Shown here piece after piece: positions 340 to 28,729 of a stretch of DNA of 64,000 nucleotides. The notes under the pieces were generated by a model. That model saw only the letters and a list, made by a program, of their open reading frames with translations, had not been told where the DNA came from and did not search any database. Position 1 is the first letter of the stretch. Each line of letters begins with the position of its first letter. Origin of the DNA: Nocardioides sp. ChNu-153 (GTDB lineage Bacteria > Actinomycetota > Actinomycetes > Propionibacteriales > Nocardioidaceae); the NCBI RefSeq assembly GCF_030466625.1, contig NZ_JADEVT010000007.1, forward strand, positions 1 through 64,000, written 5' to 3'. The position numbers and the translations under genes were made by a program.

Positions 340-1590
340 TCAGTTCCGCCGGGTGAACCGCAGTTTGCCGGTGCCGAGGGTCTCGGTGAGGTACGTCGGG
401 TCGTGTGCGACGCGGTGGTGGCGCCAGCAGAGCAGCCGTCCGCGTTCGACGGTGGTGTGTCCGCCGCGTGACCAGGGGTCGTCGTGGTGGGCCTCGCACC
501 AGTGGGGTGGTGCGTCGCAATCTTCGGCGGTGCAGCGCTGGTCGCGCAGGATCATCGCGATGCGCTGGGGCTTGCTGTGGAACCGCGCCGACCGGCCGAG
601 GTCCAGCACCTCGCTCTTCGTACCCAGCACCGCCGGGACGAGATCGGCGCCGCAGGCGAGGCGGCGGGCCTCGCCGGGTGAGATGCGGTGCCCGGTGTCG
701 AGCGACGCCGCGGCGAGACCGCCGGTGAGGGTGTCGACCTGCATGGTGACGACGACGGTGGCGCCGGCGCCGGCTGCGTCGGGGAGGTCGGCGTCGCGCA
801 TCCGCTCGATGAGCTCGACGAACGCTTGGCCGCGCCGCTCCCACGACGGGCGCGGGTCGGCAGGGGCGTCGGCGGCCTCATCACGCAGGTGAGCGCGCCG
901 CGGCGAGGCGATGGCGTCGAGCATCTTGGCGAACATCGCGCCGTGCATCTCCGGCACCGTGAACCGGCCGTGGACGCAACCGTGGCCGTCCTCGCGCATG
1001 GTGAGTCGGATCTTCGCGGCGGCCTCGCGCTCCTCGCGCGCCAGCAGCTCCGCCTCACGCGCCTCCCCGACGGCGGGGGCGACGACGTCGAGGATCCGGC
1101 GGCCCAGCACGCGGAGGGCTTTGGCGTCGTGCTGATGGGCGAACCCGACCAGCGTGCGTTCCGCCTCGGCCCTGATCTCCGCGGTGACGCCTTCGCCCAG
1201 GTCGTCCAGCGCCCGCACCACCACCTCGACCTGACCGGGCGAAACGGCGCCGGAGGTGCCTGCGGCGGCGAGGGCGTCGTACTGCTCCTCGGTGGCGACC
1301 GCGGCACGGACGCGGCGGTGGGCCTCGGCGCGCGGGACGCGGGTGGCGGTCGCGAACCACACCGCCGTCGAGGGCGCACCCGTCTCGTCTTCGACCCGCA
1401 CGTCGGAGGCGTGGGCCAGGAGCCGCGACTGCAACGCTGCGAGGCGGTTCGCGGCCCGCTCGAGCTCGACGATCGCGGCGCCCGTCTCGGCCGGGCCCAG
1501 CGTGAGCAGACCGAGCTCGAAGCCGTCGTCGAGGTCTTCGTGGACGCGTGCGACGACCCCGGCGAGGGGGTGCAGCGCGGTCTCGGTCAT
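340..1590 (-). CDS. DUF222 / HNH endonuclease domain protein (13E12-type)
   Basis: A 416-residue protein. The N-terminal three quarters is the helical, alanine/arginine-rich DUF222 region; the C-terminus carries an HNH nuclease fold with CTAEDCDAPPHWCEAHH, then DPWSRGGHT, then LLCWRHHRVAHD. The paired cysteines and the histidines fit a zinc-supported HNH site, so the catalytic part looks intact. The ATG at 1590 was chosen over a longer frame because TGTGAT lies 6 nt before it and the extra 16 residues do not look like a protein start. Families of this kind occur in many copies in actinobacterial genomes; their role is not established. The gene is bracketed by hairpin-repeat clusters at 169-318 and 1702-1894 and sits beside a transposase end, which suggests a mobile or repeat-associated cassette (inference). 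Confidence 0.9.
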   Translation of the reverse strand: MTETALHPLAGVVARVHEDLDDGFELGLLTLGPAETGAAIVELERAANRLAALQSRLLAHASDVRVEDETGAPSTAVWFATATRVPRAEAHRRVRAAVATEEQYDALAAAGTSGAVSPGQVEVVVRALDDLGEGVTAEIRAEAERTLVGFAHQHDAKALRVLGRRILDVVAPAVGEAREAELLAREEREAAAKIRLTMREDGHGCVHGRFTVPEMHGAMFAKMLDAIASPRRAHLRDEAADAPADPRPSWERRGQAFVELIERMRDADLPDAAGAGATVVVTMQVDTLTGGLAAASLDTGHRISPGEARRLACGADLVPAVLGTKSEVLDLGRSARFHSKPQRIAMILRDQRCTAEDCDAPPHWCEAHHDDPWSRGGHTTVERGRLLCWRHHRVAHDPTYLTETLGTGKLRFTRRN

Positions 1591-15582: not shown

Positions 15583-15592
15583 CCCCCGCCGA

Positions 15593-15664
15593 CACCGATC
15601 GCGGCGATCGGGCCCGCGGACGCCTCCGGCAGGTGTCCTCCGCGCCTGATCGCCGCGATCCGTG
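15593..15664 (+). repeat. Hairpin repeat family 2, upstream copy
   Basis: Left arm CACCGATCGCGGCGATCGGGC (broken here as CACCGATCGCGGC and GATCGGGC) at 15593-15613 and right arm at 15644-15664 are complementary at 19 of 21 positions, with a core of 13 perfect pairs (GATCGCGGCGATC against GATCGCCGCGATC). The core arms are 38 nt apart. It begins 10 bases after the purQ stop and ends 50 bases before the AbiEi/DUF559 gene. Confidence 0.85.
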
Positions 15665-15714
15665 CTTGTGGAGGAGAGGTCGCGCGTCGCCGCTGCGCTG
15701 ACCAGGCTCGCCGT

Positions 15715-16599
15715 GTGACCGACGAACCCCGTCTCGACGCCGTGGAGGCACTGAGCGTGCGCGGCGGTGTCGCGACCCGGGCGGACCTCCTGACCCTCAC
15801 GACCCGGCACCGGTTGCAGGCCGCCGTCGCGGACGGCCGCGTCGTCGAGGTGCGCCGCAGTGTCTACCGCCTGCCCGTGCTCGACCGCGACCGCCGTGAG
15901 GCGGCGCGCCTGCGGGGTGTCCTCTCGCACCTGAGCGCCGCCCGGGACCACGGCTGGGAGGTCCCGCCTGACGAGCGGTGCTGGGTCACGGTCCACCGCG
16001 GCCGCCACGCGCTCGGTCCGGCCGGGGGCGTCGAGCTGTTCTACGCCGACCTGGCCGGCGAGCACGGGCCGGCCACGAGCCCGGTGCGCACGGTGCTCGA
16101 CTGCGGGCGCCGACTCCCCTTCCCCACCGCGCTGGCGGTCGCCGACTCGGCCCTCCGTCACGGGGTGGAACGCGACGCCCTCGACCGCGCGGCCCGCCAG
16201 GTGCGCGGGAAGGGAGGGCCCGCCGTACGCCGGGTGGTCGCCGCCGCCTCGCCGTTGGCGGCCAACCCGTTCGAGTCCGTGCTCCGCGGCATCGCGCTCG
16301 AGGCAGGACTGGACGCCGTGCCCCAGGGCGGGGTGGAGGTGGGCGGACTGGGGCTGACCGGCGGTGACCCCGAGGTCGTGCACCCCGATGTCGTCGATCG
16401 GGAACGCCGCATCGTGCTGGAGGCGGACTCGTGGGAGTTCCACTCCGACAAGGAGGCGTTCCAGCGCGACTGCTGGCGCTACACGGTGCTCGTCGCCCAC
16501 GGGTGGCTGGTGCTGCGGTTCACCTGGTGGCAGGTCATGCTCCACCCGGGCTGGGTCCGTGAGTGCGTACGGCGTGCGGTCGACCGCGCCGCCGCCTGA
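15715..16599 (+). CDS. AbiEi-like wHTH / DUF559 nuclease-like domain protein
   Basis: A 294-residue protein. The N-terminus (ARGGVATRADLL...GRVVEVRRSVYRLP pattern at about 15-60) is the winged-helix domain annotated in AbiEi antitoxin-like proteins. The C-terminus (about 220-275) matches DUF559/VSR-like endonucleases: HPDVVDRERRIVLEADSWEF, then FQRDCWRYTVLVAHGW and LRFTWWQVM. The D...E-A-D spacing fits a PD-(D/E)XK active site. No AbiEii partner gene lies next to it, so a toxin-antitoxin role is not supported. GTG start with CAGGCT 6 nt upstream. A family-2 hairpin lies on each side, both in the same orientation. Confidence 0.82.
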   Translation: MTDEPRLDAVEALSVRGGVATRADLLTLTTRHRLQAAVADGRVVEVRRSVYRLPVLDRDRREAARLRGVLSHLSAARDHGWEVPPDERCWVTVHRGRHALGPAGGVELFYADLAGEHGPATSPVRTVLDCGRRLPFPTALAVADSALRHGVERDALDRAARQVRGKGGPAVRRVVAAASPLAANPFESVLRGIALEAGLDAVPQGGVEVGGLGLTGGDPEVVHPDVVDRERRIVLEADSWEFHSDKEAFQRDCWRYTVLVAHGWLVLRFTWWQVMLHPGWVRECVRRAVDRAAA

Positions 16600-16602
16600 C
16601 CC

Positions 16603-16669
16603 GGATCGCGGCGATCGGTCGCGGGGAAGCCCTGGATCGGCCCTTCACACCGCGATCGCCGCGATCCGT
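16603..16669 (+). repeat. Hairpin repeat family 2, downstream copy
   Basis: GATCGCGGCGATC at 16604-16616 and GATCGCCGCGATC at 16654-16666, 37 nt apart, followed by CGTGC as in the upstream copy. The loop sequence differs completely from the first copy while arms and spacing are kept. It starts 3 bases after the stop of the AbiEi/DUF559 gene. Confidence 0.85.
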
Positions 16670-16696
16670 GCACCTGGCCCACCCACGCCTGGCCCA

Positions 16697-16719
16697 TCTA
16701 CGACACAGCGTCGTAGACT
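16697..16719 (+). promoter_or_regulatory. Palindrome TCTACGAC-N5-GTCGTAGA overlapping the -10 of the DUF3817 gene
   Basis: Perfect 8-bp arms at 16697-16704 and 16710-16717. The -10-like TAGACT at 16714-16719 overlaps the right arm and lies 7 nt before the ATG at 16727. A protein bound here would block initiation, so this is a candidate repressor operator. Confidence 0.55.
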
Positions 16720-27575: not shown

Positions 27576-28545
27576 ACGAGCGGCGCGGGTGTCGCGGCGG
27601 GGCGTGCTGGCGGGGTCGCTCGGCACGGTCGGGGCGGCGCTCGGGCTGGCGGGGCTCGCCGGGTGCGCCGACGACGGCCTGCCCGGCGCGGCGGACGAGC
27701 CGCCGCCGGACGACGCGACGCCGATCCCGGGCAGCGACGTGCTGACCCCGCGCCGGGTGGCCTACGGCGACGACCCCGCGCAGTACGCCGACCTCTACCG
27801 CCCCGCGCCCGGCACGACGGTCGACGGCCGGGCCGACGGTCCGGCCTCCAAGGGCGTCGTGGTGGTGATCCACGGCGGGTTCTGGCGGGCCGAGTACGAC
27901 GCGACGCTCGGCGCCCCGCTGGCCCTCGGCCTGGCGGAGGCAGGGTGGACGGCCTGGAACCTGGAGTACCGCCGCGTCGGCTCCGGCGAGGGCGGCGGCG
28001 GTGGGTTCCCGGCGACCCTGGACGACGTGGCCGCCGGGATCGACGCGCTGGCCGACGTCGACGACCTCACCGACGCCGAGCGCGCGACCGTCCTGACGCT
28101 GGGGCACTCCGCGGGTGGCCACCTGGCGGTCTGGGCCGCCGCGCGCGGCCGCTTCGAGCGGTGGGCGCCCGAGCGGGTCGCGGTGACCGGCGCGGTCAGC
28201 CAGGCCGGGGTGCTCGACCTGACCGGCGCCCTCGACGACGCCACCGCCCGTCCGAACGTGCTGGCGCTCATGGGCGGGGACGCCGCGGCGGACCCCGAGT
28301 CCTACGCGCAGGCCGACCCGACCGCGCACCTCCCGCTCGGCGTGCCCGTGCGCTGCGTCCACGGCACGGACGACCGGATCGTGCCGATCACGCAGTCGCT
28401 GCGGTACGTCGAGCGCGCCGTCGCCGCCGGCGACGACGCCACTCTGACCGAGGTCGACGGCGACCACTTCGTCGTCATCGACGCGGCGTCGCCGGCGTGG
28501 TCCGCGACGCTCGACCTGCTGGAGGGCCTGCGCCCCGGTGGTTGA
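27550..28545 (+). CDS. Tat-exported alpha/beta hydrolase lipoprotein
   Basis: A 331-residue protein. The N-terminus has a twin-arginine signal (VSRRGVLAGSLG) and lipobox LAGC with C39. The hydrolase domain has the oxyanion motif HGGFW, the nucleophile elbow GHSAGGH, HGTDDRIVP (Asp) and DGDHF (His), the pattern of BD-FAE / kynurenine-formamidase-like esterases. GTG at 27550 was chosen because GGAGG lies 6 nt upstream and it gives the usual n-region; it overlaps arfB by 26 bp. Its TGA stop (28543-28545) lies inside a hairpin-repeat copy. Confidence 0.85.
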   Translation: MGGRAGGTERAARVSRRGVLAGSLGTVGAALGLAGLAGCADDGLPGAADEPPPDDATPIPGSDVLTPRRVAYGDDPAQYADLYRPAPGTTVDGRADGPASKGVVVVIHGGFWRAEYDATLGAPLALGLAEAGWTAWNLEYRRVGSGEGGGGGFPATLDDVAAGIDALADVDDLTDAERATVLTLGHSAGGHLAVWAAARGRFERWAPERVAVTGAVSQAGVLDLTGALDDATARPNVLALMGGDAAADPESYAQADPTAHLPLGVPVRCVHGTDDRIVPITQSLRYVERAVAAGDDATLTEVDGDHFVVIDAASPAWSATLDLLEGLRPGG

Positions 28546-28584
28546 GGTGGCCGCGCGGCTCATCGGTGGTTGAGGTGGGTGCGC
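28537..28584 (-). repeat. Hairpin repeat family 1, two half units
   Basis: GGTGGTTGAGGTGGCCGCGC at 28537-28556 and GGTGGTTGAGGTGGGTGCGC at 28565-28584. The first carries the stop codon of the hydrolase gene. Only one arm of each is present. Confidence 0.75.
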
Positions 28585-28591
28585 GGCGCCC

Positions 28592-28630
28592 GGTGGTTGA
28601 GGTGGGTGCGCTAGCACCCCTCGAAACCAC
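28592..28630 (-). repeat. Hairpin repeat family 1, full unit with GGTGC/GCACC apical stem
   Basis: GTGGTT/AACCAC and GAGG/CCTC outer pairs are kept; the apical stem is GGTGC/GCACC around GCTA, again compensated on both arms. Orientation opposite to the next unit. Confidence 0.85.
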
Positions 28631-28646
28631 GGGTGGCCCGGGCTGG

Positions 28647-28687
28647 GTGGTTTCGAGGGCTCGCTAGAGCGAGCCACCTCAACCACC
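28647..28687 (+). repeat. Hairpin repeat family 1, full unit with GCTCGC/GCGAGC apical stem
   Basis: Outer arms and TC/CA bulges as elsewhere; apical stem GCTCGC/GCGAGC with loop TAGA. A fourth distinct but paired apical stem. Confidence 0.85.
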
Positions 28688-28729
28688 GGAGCACGGTCGC
28701 GCGGCTCGACCACCAGGGGCCGGGGCGAG

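Follow-up and report, generated by a model that had tools for sequence, protein, structure and literature searches.

The 64,000 nt stretch of Nocardioides sp. ChNu-153 DNA that was analysed (the window) contains, between purQ and a DUF3817 gene, a gene for a 294 amino acid protein with a palindrome on either side of it. The locus therefore raises the question of whether the gene and the palindromes form a single unit and, if so, of what kind. The features of the locus are listed below.

15583–16703 (approximate ends), no strand: inserted segment, between the purQ stop codon and the DUF3817 promoter palindrome CTACGACAC..GTCGTAG.
15593–15664, no strand: upstream palindrome, arms at 15597–15609 and 15648–15660, spacer of 38 nt; the same arms occur downstream, and three gene-free palindromes elsewhere in the genome also have a spacer of 38 nt.
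15667–15675, plus strand: TGTGGAGGA, a copy of the (C)CTGTGGANRA motif shared across the family, located exactly 48 nt upstream of the start codon.
15703–15708, plus strand: CAGGCT, a −10-like hexamer at a distance of 7 nt from the start codon; candidate promoter element.
15715–16599, plus strand: gene for the 294 amino acid protein, described by Pfam, PADLOC, AlphaFold2, fold matches and residue conservation.
16602–16668, no strand: downstream palindrome, arms at 16604–16616 and 16654–16666, spacer of 37 nt; missing at the empty site even though DUF3817 is present there.

The two palindromes had identical arms (GATCGCGGCGATC/GATCGCCGCGATC) and spacers that were unrelated in sequence, which agreed with the initial annotation of two hairpins with common arms, a spacing of 38 and 37 nt and unrelated loops; no such pair was expected by chance (0 in 100 dinucleotide shuffles). 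The upstream copy showed an imperfect outward extension of its arms (CAC/GTG). When folded as single strands, both palindromes scored better than 200 of 200 shuffles, with z values of −5.7 and −3.7 (plus strand). The end of the upstream copy was 54 nt from the GTG start codon and the stop codon was 4 nt from the start of the downstream copy. The annotation had also described the copies as being in the same orientation; both are present, but orientation has little meaning for a near-symmetric palindrome.

An AlphaFold2 model of the 294 amino acid protein (mean pLDDT 94) and a fold search revealed a wHTH at residues 4–54, an AbiEi C-terminal fold at residues 54–179 and a Vsr/EDxHD nuclease at residues 184–294. 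NCBIfam gave the protein no name, Pfam gave a weak match to MTES_1575/DUF559 and the AbiEi profiles of PADLOC matched residues 12–170. The nuclease half matched the folds of I-Bth0305I (PDB 3r3p, Z 12.9) and Vsr (1cw0, Z 10.7), and the AbiEi half (54–179) matched 6y8q (Z 10.6); TnsA was also among the fold matches, weakly (Z 7.1). As E187, D225, E236, H243, D252 and R255 were kept in at least 101 of the 102 non-redundant relatives of the query gene that made up the family survey, the nuclease appears to be under selection for retained activity. Relatives (E ≤ 1e-10) were patchily spread, being found in 133 of 197 Nocardioides genomes, usually with one to four copies of the gene per genome, and extended to Janibacter and Phycicoccus. 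Plasmids and IMG/VR viral contigs yielded no relative, and there was one match in a phage-collection contig. The query genome (G000) itself encoded a second family gene (L004, C6:16606–17788), which had direct repeats of approximately 70 nt on both sides and an extra copy upstream; a related copy was located on contig C25.

The orthologous place in other Nocardioides genomes was located via PurQ. In most of the 29 genomes inspected purQ was beside DUF3817, and in G149, G163 and G106 (PurQ 89–90% identical) the DUF3817 promoter region followed purQ at 0–25 nt, with both the gene and the palindromes absent from the gap. These were empty sites of the kind that the initial annotation had suggested looking for, with purQ directly followed by the DUF3817 gene. 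Because purQ and DUF3817 adjoin in the closest available Nocardioides genomes, the upstream palindrome, the gene and the downstream palindrome are by this comparison one insertion of approximately 1.1 kb, which we judge to be recent. The closest relatives of the query protein were not encoded by these three sister genomes, which suggests horizontal movement of the gene. That the downstream palindrome is DUF3817's own operator was ruled out, as the sister genomes have DUF3817 without this palindrome. Insertion into a pre-existing gene-free palindrome was likewise unsupported, since none was present at the two empty sites examined. The empty gap of G163 (L124) contained GGATCGGCGATC; its similarity to one arm of the query palindromes may reflect a scar, a target or a coincidence.

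Insertion was also apparent at other loci. At one (L056), ten genomes had two neighbouring genes a few nucleotides apart, where G142 had a palindrome, the gene and a palindrome. A comparison of G132 with G107 showed one intergenic site, with neighbours that were approximately 90% identical, to be occupied by two different cassettes whose proteins were 47% identical. Their palindromes were unrelated and each cassette had its own pair, that of G107 consisting of two nearly identical copies. No consistent target-site duplication was found, the flanks outside L167 being too diverged. At L167 (G107), GGTCAG was present on both sides of the cassette as a possible 6-bp target duplication, which was seen only at this locus.

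Among the 102 relatives, the best upstream inverted repeat scored ≥12 in 38%, compared with 2.6% of shuffles and none of the in-gene or distant windows. A direct repeat shared between the upstream and downstream sides (score ≥14) was present in 37%, compared with 0.2% of shuffles, 0/30 for purQ, 1/25 for DUF3817 and 1.1% of random intervals. One or other signal was found in 51 of the 102 relatives, and the palindrome pair was undetectable in about half of those surveyed. A clear upstream palindrome was present at 35 genes, 22 of which had a complete downstream copy with matching arms and a spacer length within 2 nt (for example 55/55, 43/43, 65/65 and 34/34 nt), and the left arm of the downstream copy was often inside the gene end. 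In G180 (L121, C188:19654–21371) two identical DUF559 genes were arranged tail to tail, 62 nt apart by match coordinates and each with the same palindrome; this could reflect a genuine inverted duplication or an error of assembly.

The arm sequences were, as far as these alignments go, private to each gene and changed with the protein. Arm similarity tracked protein similarity (Mantel p 0.002), and at 65–80% protein identity approximately 13–15 of 20 arm positions matched, with the spacer centres and outer flanks near background. Pairs with 74–76% identical proteins had common arms and different neighbours, and at L067 the gene was reversed relative to L065 and L069 with the same neighbours. 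Since arms were shared without shared neighbours, and given this reversal, the arms can be taken to travel with the gene. Arm similarity was predicted no better by the helix-turn-helix than by the other domains, and the co-variation therefore did not point to the binding domain in particular. In G132 each arm contained two CGACCAC blocks, 11 nt apart and with an unpaired gap between them. Compensatory changes in this palindrome family were few (three pairs in two copies) and therefore did not decide between recognition of a hairpin and of double-stranded DNA. These findings, namely the empty sites, the layout with own arms in relatives and the movement of arms with the gene into different neighbourhoods, support the earlier proposal of a nuclease-palindrome cassette.

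One part of that proposal had to be revised, as the layout stood but the palindromes were not confined to the gene; gene-free (solo) copies were dispersed as in REP/RAYT systems. The genome search suggested for the arm pair returned, with exact arms, two palindromes in the whole 3.75 Mb genome, both at this gene, but with one to two mismatches allowed it returned three further palindromes, all with a spacer of 38 nt and none beside a DUF559 gene. A reading of the palindrome as unique to the gene was therefore overturned once mismatches at fixed spacing were allowed. A degenerate pattern gave five matches in the query genome, none in 186 other Nocardioides genomes including gene-free sisters, and none when read backwards. 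Additionally, five single GATCGCSGCGATC arms elsewhere in G000 lay in apparent coding frames without a partner arm. The G000 solos (L217, L218, L219 700–1420; C1, C3, C14) were in CCACCTCAACCACC repeat arrays beside DUF222 genes, and two of the three had near-identical surroundings that formed a mosaic of both palindrome families; on account of this position and similarity, they may have moved as passengers.

Larger solo families were found elsewhere. G132 contained approximately 20 solos of its own gene's palindrome, in which the arms were conserved, the spacer length was near-constant and the spacer sequence was unrelated. These were absent from the matching intergenic regions of G107 and G104 and were mostly beside gene 3′-ends (17/20 by a rough coding test). 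G104 contained five solos, all with a spacer of exactly 40 nt, G195 contained three, and several other genomes contained one to four candidates by BLAST, which misses diverged solos; in many genomes solo numbers were low. Two positions in G077 (C1:819865 and C3:72928) had L060-type arms, although the DUF559 gene detected in that genome has other arms, and are possible orphan palindromes. The orthologous gaps L244 and L246 (G104) and L202 and L198 (G132) contained different palindromes, for example AAACTGCCCGATCGAC..GTCGATCGGGCAGTTT.

The window contains a second nuclease-type gene with its own palindromes at both ends, as the initial annotation had noted. This DUF222/HNH gene (340–1590, minus strand; DUF222 confirmed by Pfam) was flanked by GTGGTTTCGAGG..CCACCTCAACCACC palindromes at 177–319 and 1703–1894, and CCTGTGGA preceded its start by approximately 58 nt, as is also seen in the DUF559 family. 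More CCACCTCAACCACC palindrome copies were present at 28537–28714, apparently away from nuclease genes, with 4/10 of the arm matches in the window. DUF222-HNH (REP13E12-type) genes thus share with the DUF559/AbiEi gene a nuclease, palindromes at both ends, dispersed copies and CCTGTGGA upstream, whereas the protein is unrelated and the palindromes are different. The DUF222/HNH gene is possibly a second nuclease-palindrome system.

The upstream region also contained a conserved promoter-like block. TGTGGA was present within 110 nt upstream of the gene in 94 of 103 relatives, with a modal distance of 48 nt before the start codon; TGTGGANRA is probably similar to actinobacterial DnaA boxes read as the reverse complement. 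In the aligned block, A (74%) and T (76%) predominated at the conserved positions of a −10-like element (AnnCT) 7 nt before the start, and the closeness of this element to the start suggests that the family genes have a leaderless transcript. As the upstream palindrome abuts the block, it may have a regulatory role besides mobility. The main rival explanation, which we consider unlikely, takes this further: the protein would be an autoregulator of the AbiEi type carrying a nuclease tail, with the palindromes as private operators and the solos as the remaining sites of a small regulon. There is a precedent in AbiEi, whose own promoter contains the 23-bp inverted repeats that it binds (PMC7319586), and both the position of the upstream palindrome against the block and the G132 CGACCAC blocks, whose 11 nt separation and unpaired gap suit a protein on double-stranded DNA, are consistent with this model. 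However, the palindromes are upstream of the promoter and not on it, their spacers are approximately 30–79 bp instead of 3 or 13, and the complete downstream copy after or overlapping the gene end in 22/35 genes has no obvious operator role. The lineage specificity of the solos and their position, mostly beside gene 3′-ends in the rough coding test (17/20), also argue against it.

A classical insertion sequence, in which the outer arms are terminal inverted repeats, the inner arms subterminal repeats, the nuclease a TnsA-like transposase and the solos MITEs, is improbable. The outermost arms do form inverted repeats of 13–25 bp like the ends of an insertion sequence, there are empty sites and TnsA was a fold match, if a weak one (Z 7.1), but the protein contains no recombinase domain of the DDE, tyrosine or serine type, no target duplication recurred consistently and the gene usually has only one to four copies per genome. 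Furthermore, the solos keep the arms and a near-constant spacer length and not the spacer sequence, unlike the deletion derivatives of one transposon. Rather less probable still is a defence gene, in which case an AbiEi-nuclease fusion would counter phages or incoming DNA and the palindromes would be self marks or hot spots of cassette exchange between strains. Vsr nucleases of the MTES_1575 type are known from predicted conflict proteins (PMC3710099), which together with the PADLOC AbiEi match (residues 12–170) and the patchy presence (133/197 genomes) would fit defence, but there is no partner toxin beside the gene, whose neighbours are purQ and DUF3817, relatives were absent from plasmids and IMG/VR viral contigs, with a single match in the phage collection, and the dispersed solos are left unexplained. 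Short palindromes are common in a GC-rich genome, yet the signal was missing from the shuffles and from the real-sequence controls (in-gene and distant windows, purQ, DUF3817 and random intervals) and the pattern read backwards gave no matches, which rules out chance or GC-rich low complexity for practical purposes.

We consider it probable that the locus is a REPtron-like selfish unit, consisting of a Vsr/EDxHD-type nuclease gene between two private palindromes together with scattered gene-free palindromes; the insertion, the layout, the co-variation, the solo families and the conserved active site are what is observed of it. RAYT-REP systems are recognized by private palindromes spread through the genome, by a gene that lies between copies of that palindrome, and by co-variation and co-occurrence (PMC2817692). 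Like the RAYT (TnpA-REP) REPtron (PMC2817692, PMC3733652, PMC8266576), the cassette has a gene flanked by two cognate palindromes that co-vary with the protein, and extragenic palindromes dispersed in the same genome and tied to the presence of the gene, with G077 as a possible exception. It is not a RAYT, because the enzyme is different: wHTH, AbiEi and Vsr/EDxHD nuclease account for its whole length and there is no Y1 HUH transposase. The palindromes also differ, having arms of 13–25 nt and a fixed spacer of approximately 30–79 nt, whereas a REP is one short hairpin with a GTAG tag; no GTAG/GTGG tag was found at a fixed position in the cassette arms. Copy numbers of the palindromes are lower and the hosts are Actinobacteria. 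The cassette seems to be selfish DNA of a kind not described before, similar to REP/RAYT and built on an unrelated enzyme.

Each part of the enzyme has its own known counterparts. The EDxHD homing endonuclease I-Bth0305I, a dimeric enzyme with a target of nearly 60 bp (PMC3943268), shares the catalytic fold (PDB 3r3p, Z 12.9) and the E-D-x-H-D pattern (E187, D225, H243 and D252 in ≥101/102 relatives), but the gene described here is not in an intron or intein, and the palindromes, if they are the target, are intact on both sides and not split by the gene. AbiEi antitoxins (PDB 6y8q; Rv2827c, 1zel; PMC7319586) share the wHTH with the AbiEi C-terminal fold (Z 10.6) and inverted repeats of approximately 20 bp next to the promoter. 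They differ from the cassette, in which a nuclease is fused and the repeats are far apart and at both gene ends, and the adjacent AbiEii nucleotidyltransferase toxin of the AbiE type IV toxin-antitoxin system is absent, the neighbours being purQ and DUF3817. Vsr mismatch endonuclease (1cw0) and MTES_1575/DUF559 domains share the nuclease fold and active-site residues; unlike Vsr, the cassette gene is without an adjacent DNA methyltransferase and has private palindromes.

For the REPtron-like unit, the most likely mechanism is that a dimer binds both arms and cuts the spacer and that repair spreads palindrome and gene, because AbiEi binds 23-bp inverted repeats and the EDxHD dimer targets nearly 60 bp. 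The wHTH/AbiEi halves of two protein molecules would each contact one of the inverted arms, much as AbiEi contacts its repeats, and the nuclease domains would extend into the spacer, which is constant in length but not in sequence, to cleave or nick it, as in the I-Bth0305I dimer. Through repair or copying, further intergenic sites would then gain palindromes, and now and then the gene with a palindrome on each side, in keeping with the lineage-specific insertions seen. We infer arm binding, cleavage and movement by the 294 amino acid protein from these parallels. The upstream palindrome may also allow the protein to control its own promoter. Several points speak against the REPtron-like reading. 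With its targets intact on either side of the gene, an active nuclease would cleave its own locus unless kept in check. The same is true of the roughly half of relatives in which a palindrome pair was undetectable, the lack of a consistent target-site duplication, the sister empty sites free of solos, the low solo numbers in many genomes and the possible passenger origin of the G000 solos.

Bacterial genomes commonly contain repetitive extragenic palindromes, and to our knowledge the RAYT transposase is their only known maker. Some palindrome families are without a known partner, as is stated for the CGTC repeats (PMC3733652). We found no such nuclease-palindrome system in a literature search that had most subscription journals outside its scope. 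It is quite possible, if somewhat short of an even chance, that Actinobacteria have an independently evolved class of REPtron, in which a homing-type (Vsr/EDxHD) nuclease and not an HUH transposase maintains and spreads private palindromes by spacer cutting and repair, with DUF222-HNH as a further independent case. Were private palindromes linked to a second, unrelated enzyme, such dual systems would have evolved more than once and, if the same is true of DUF222-HNH, a nuclease with a private palindrome would be a general kind of selfish element. The arm-protein pairs would represent many natural specificities for a possible long-target nuclease, and the annotated but unexplained DUF559/AbiEi genes, present in two thirds of the Nocardioides genomes searched, would gain a testable role.
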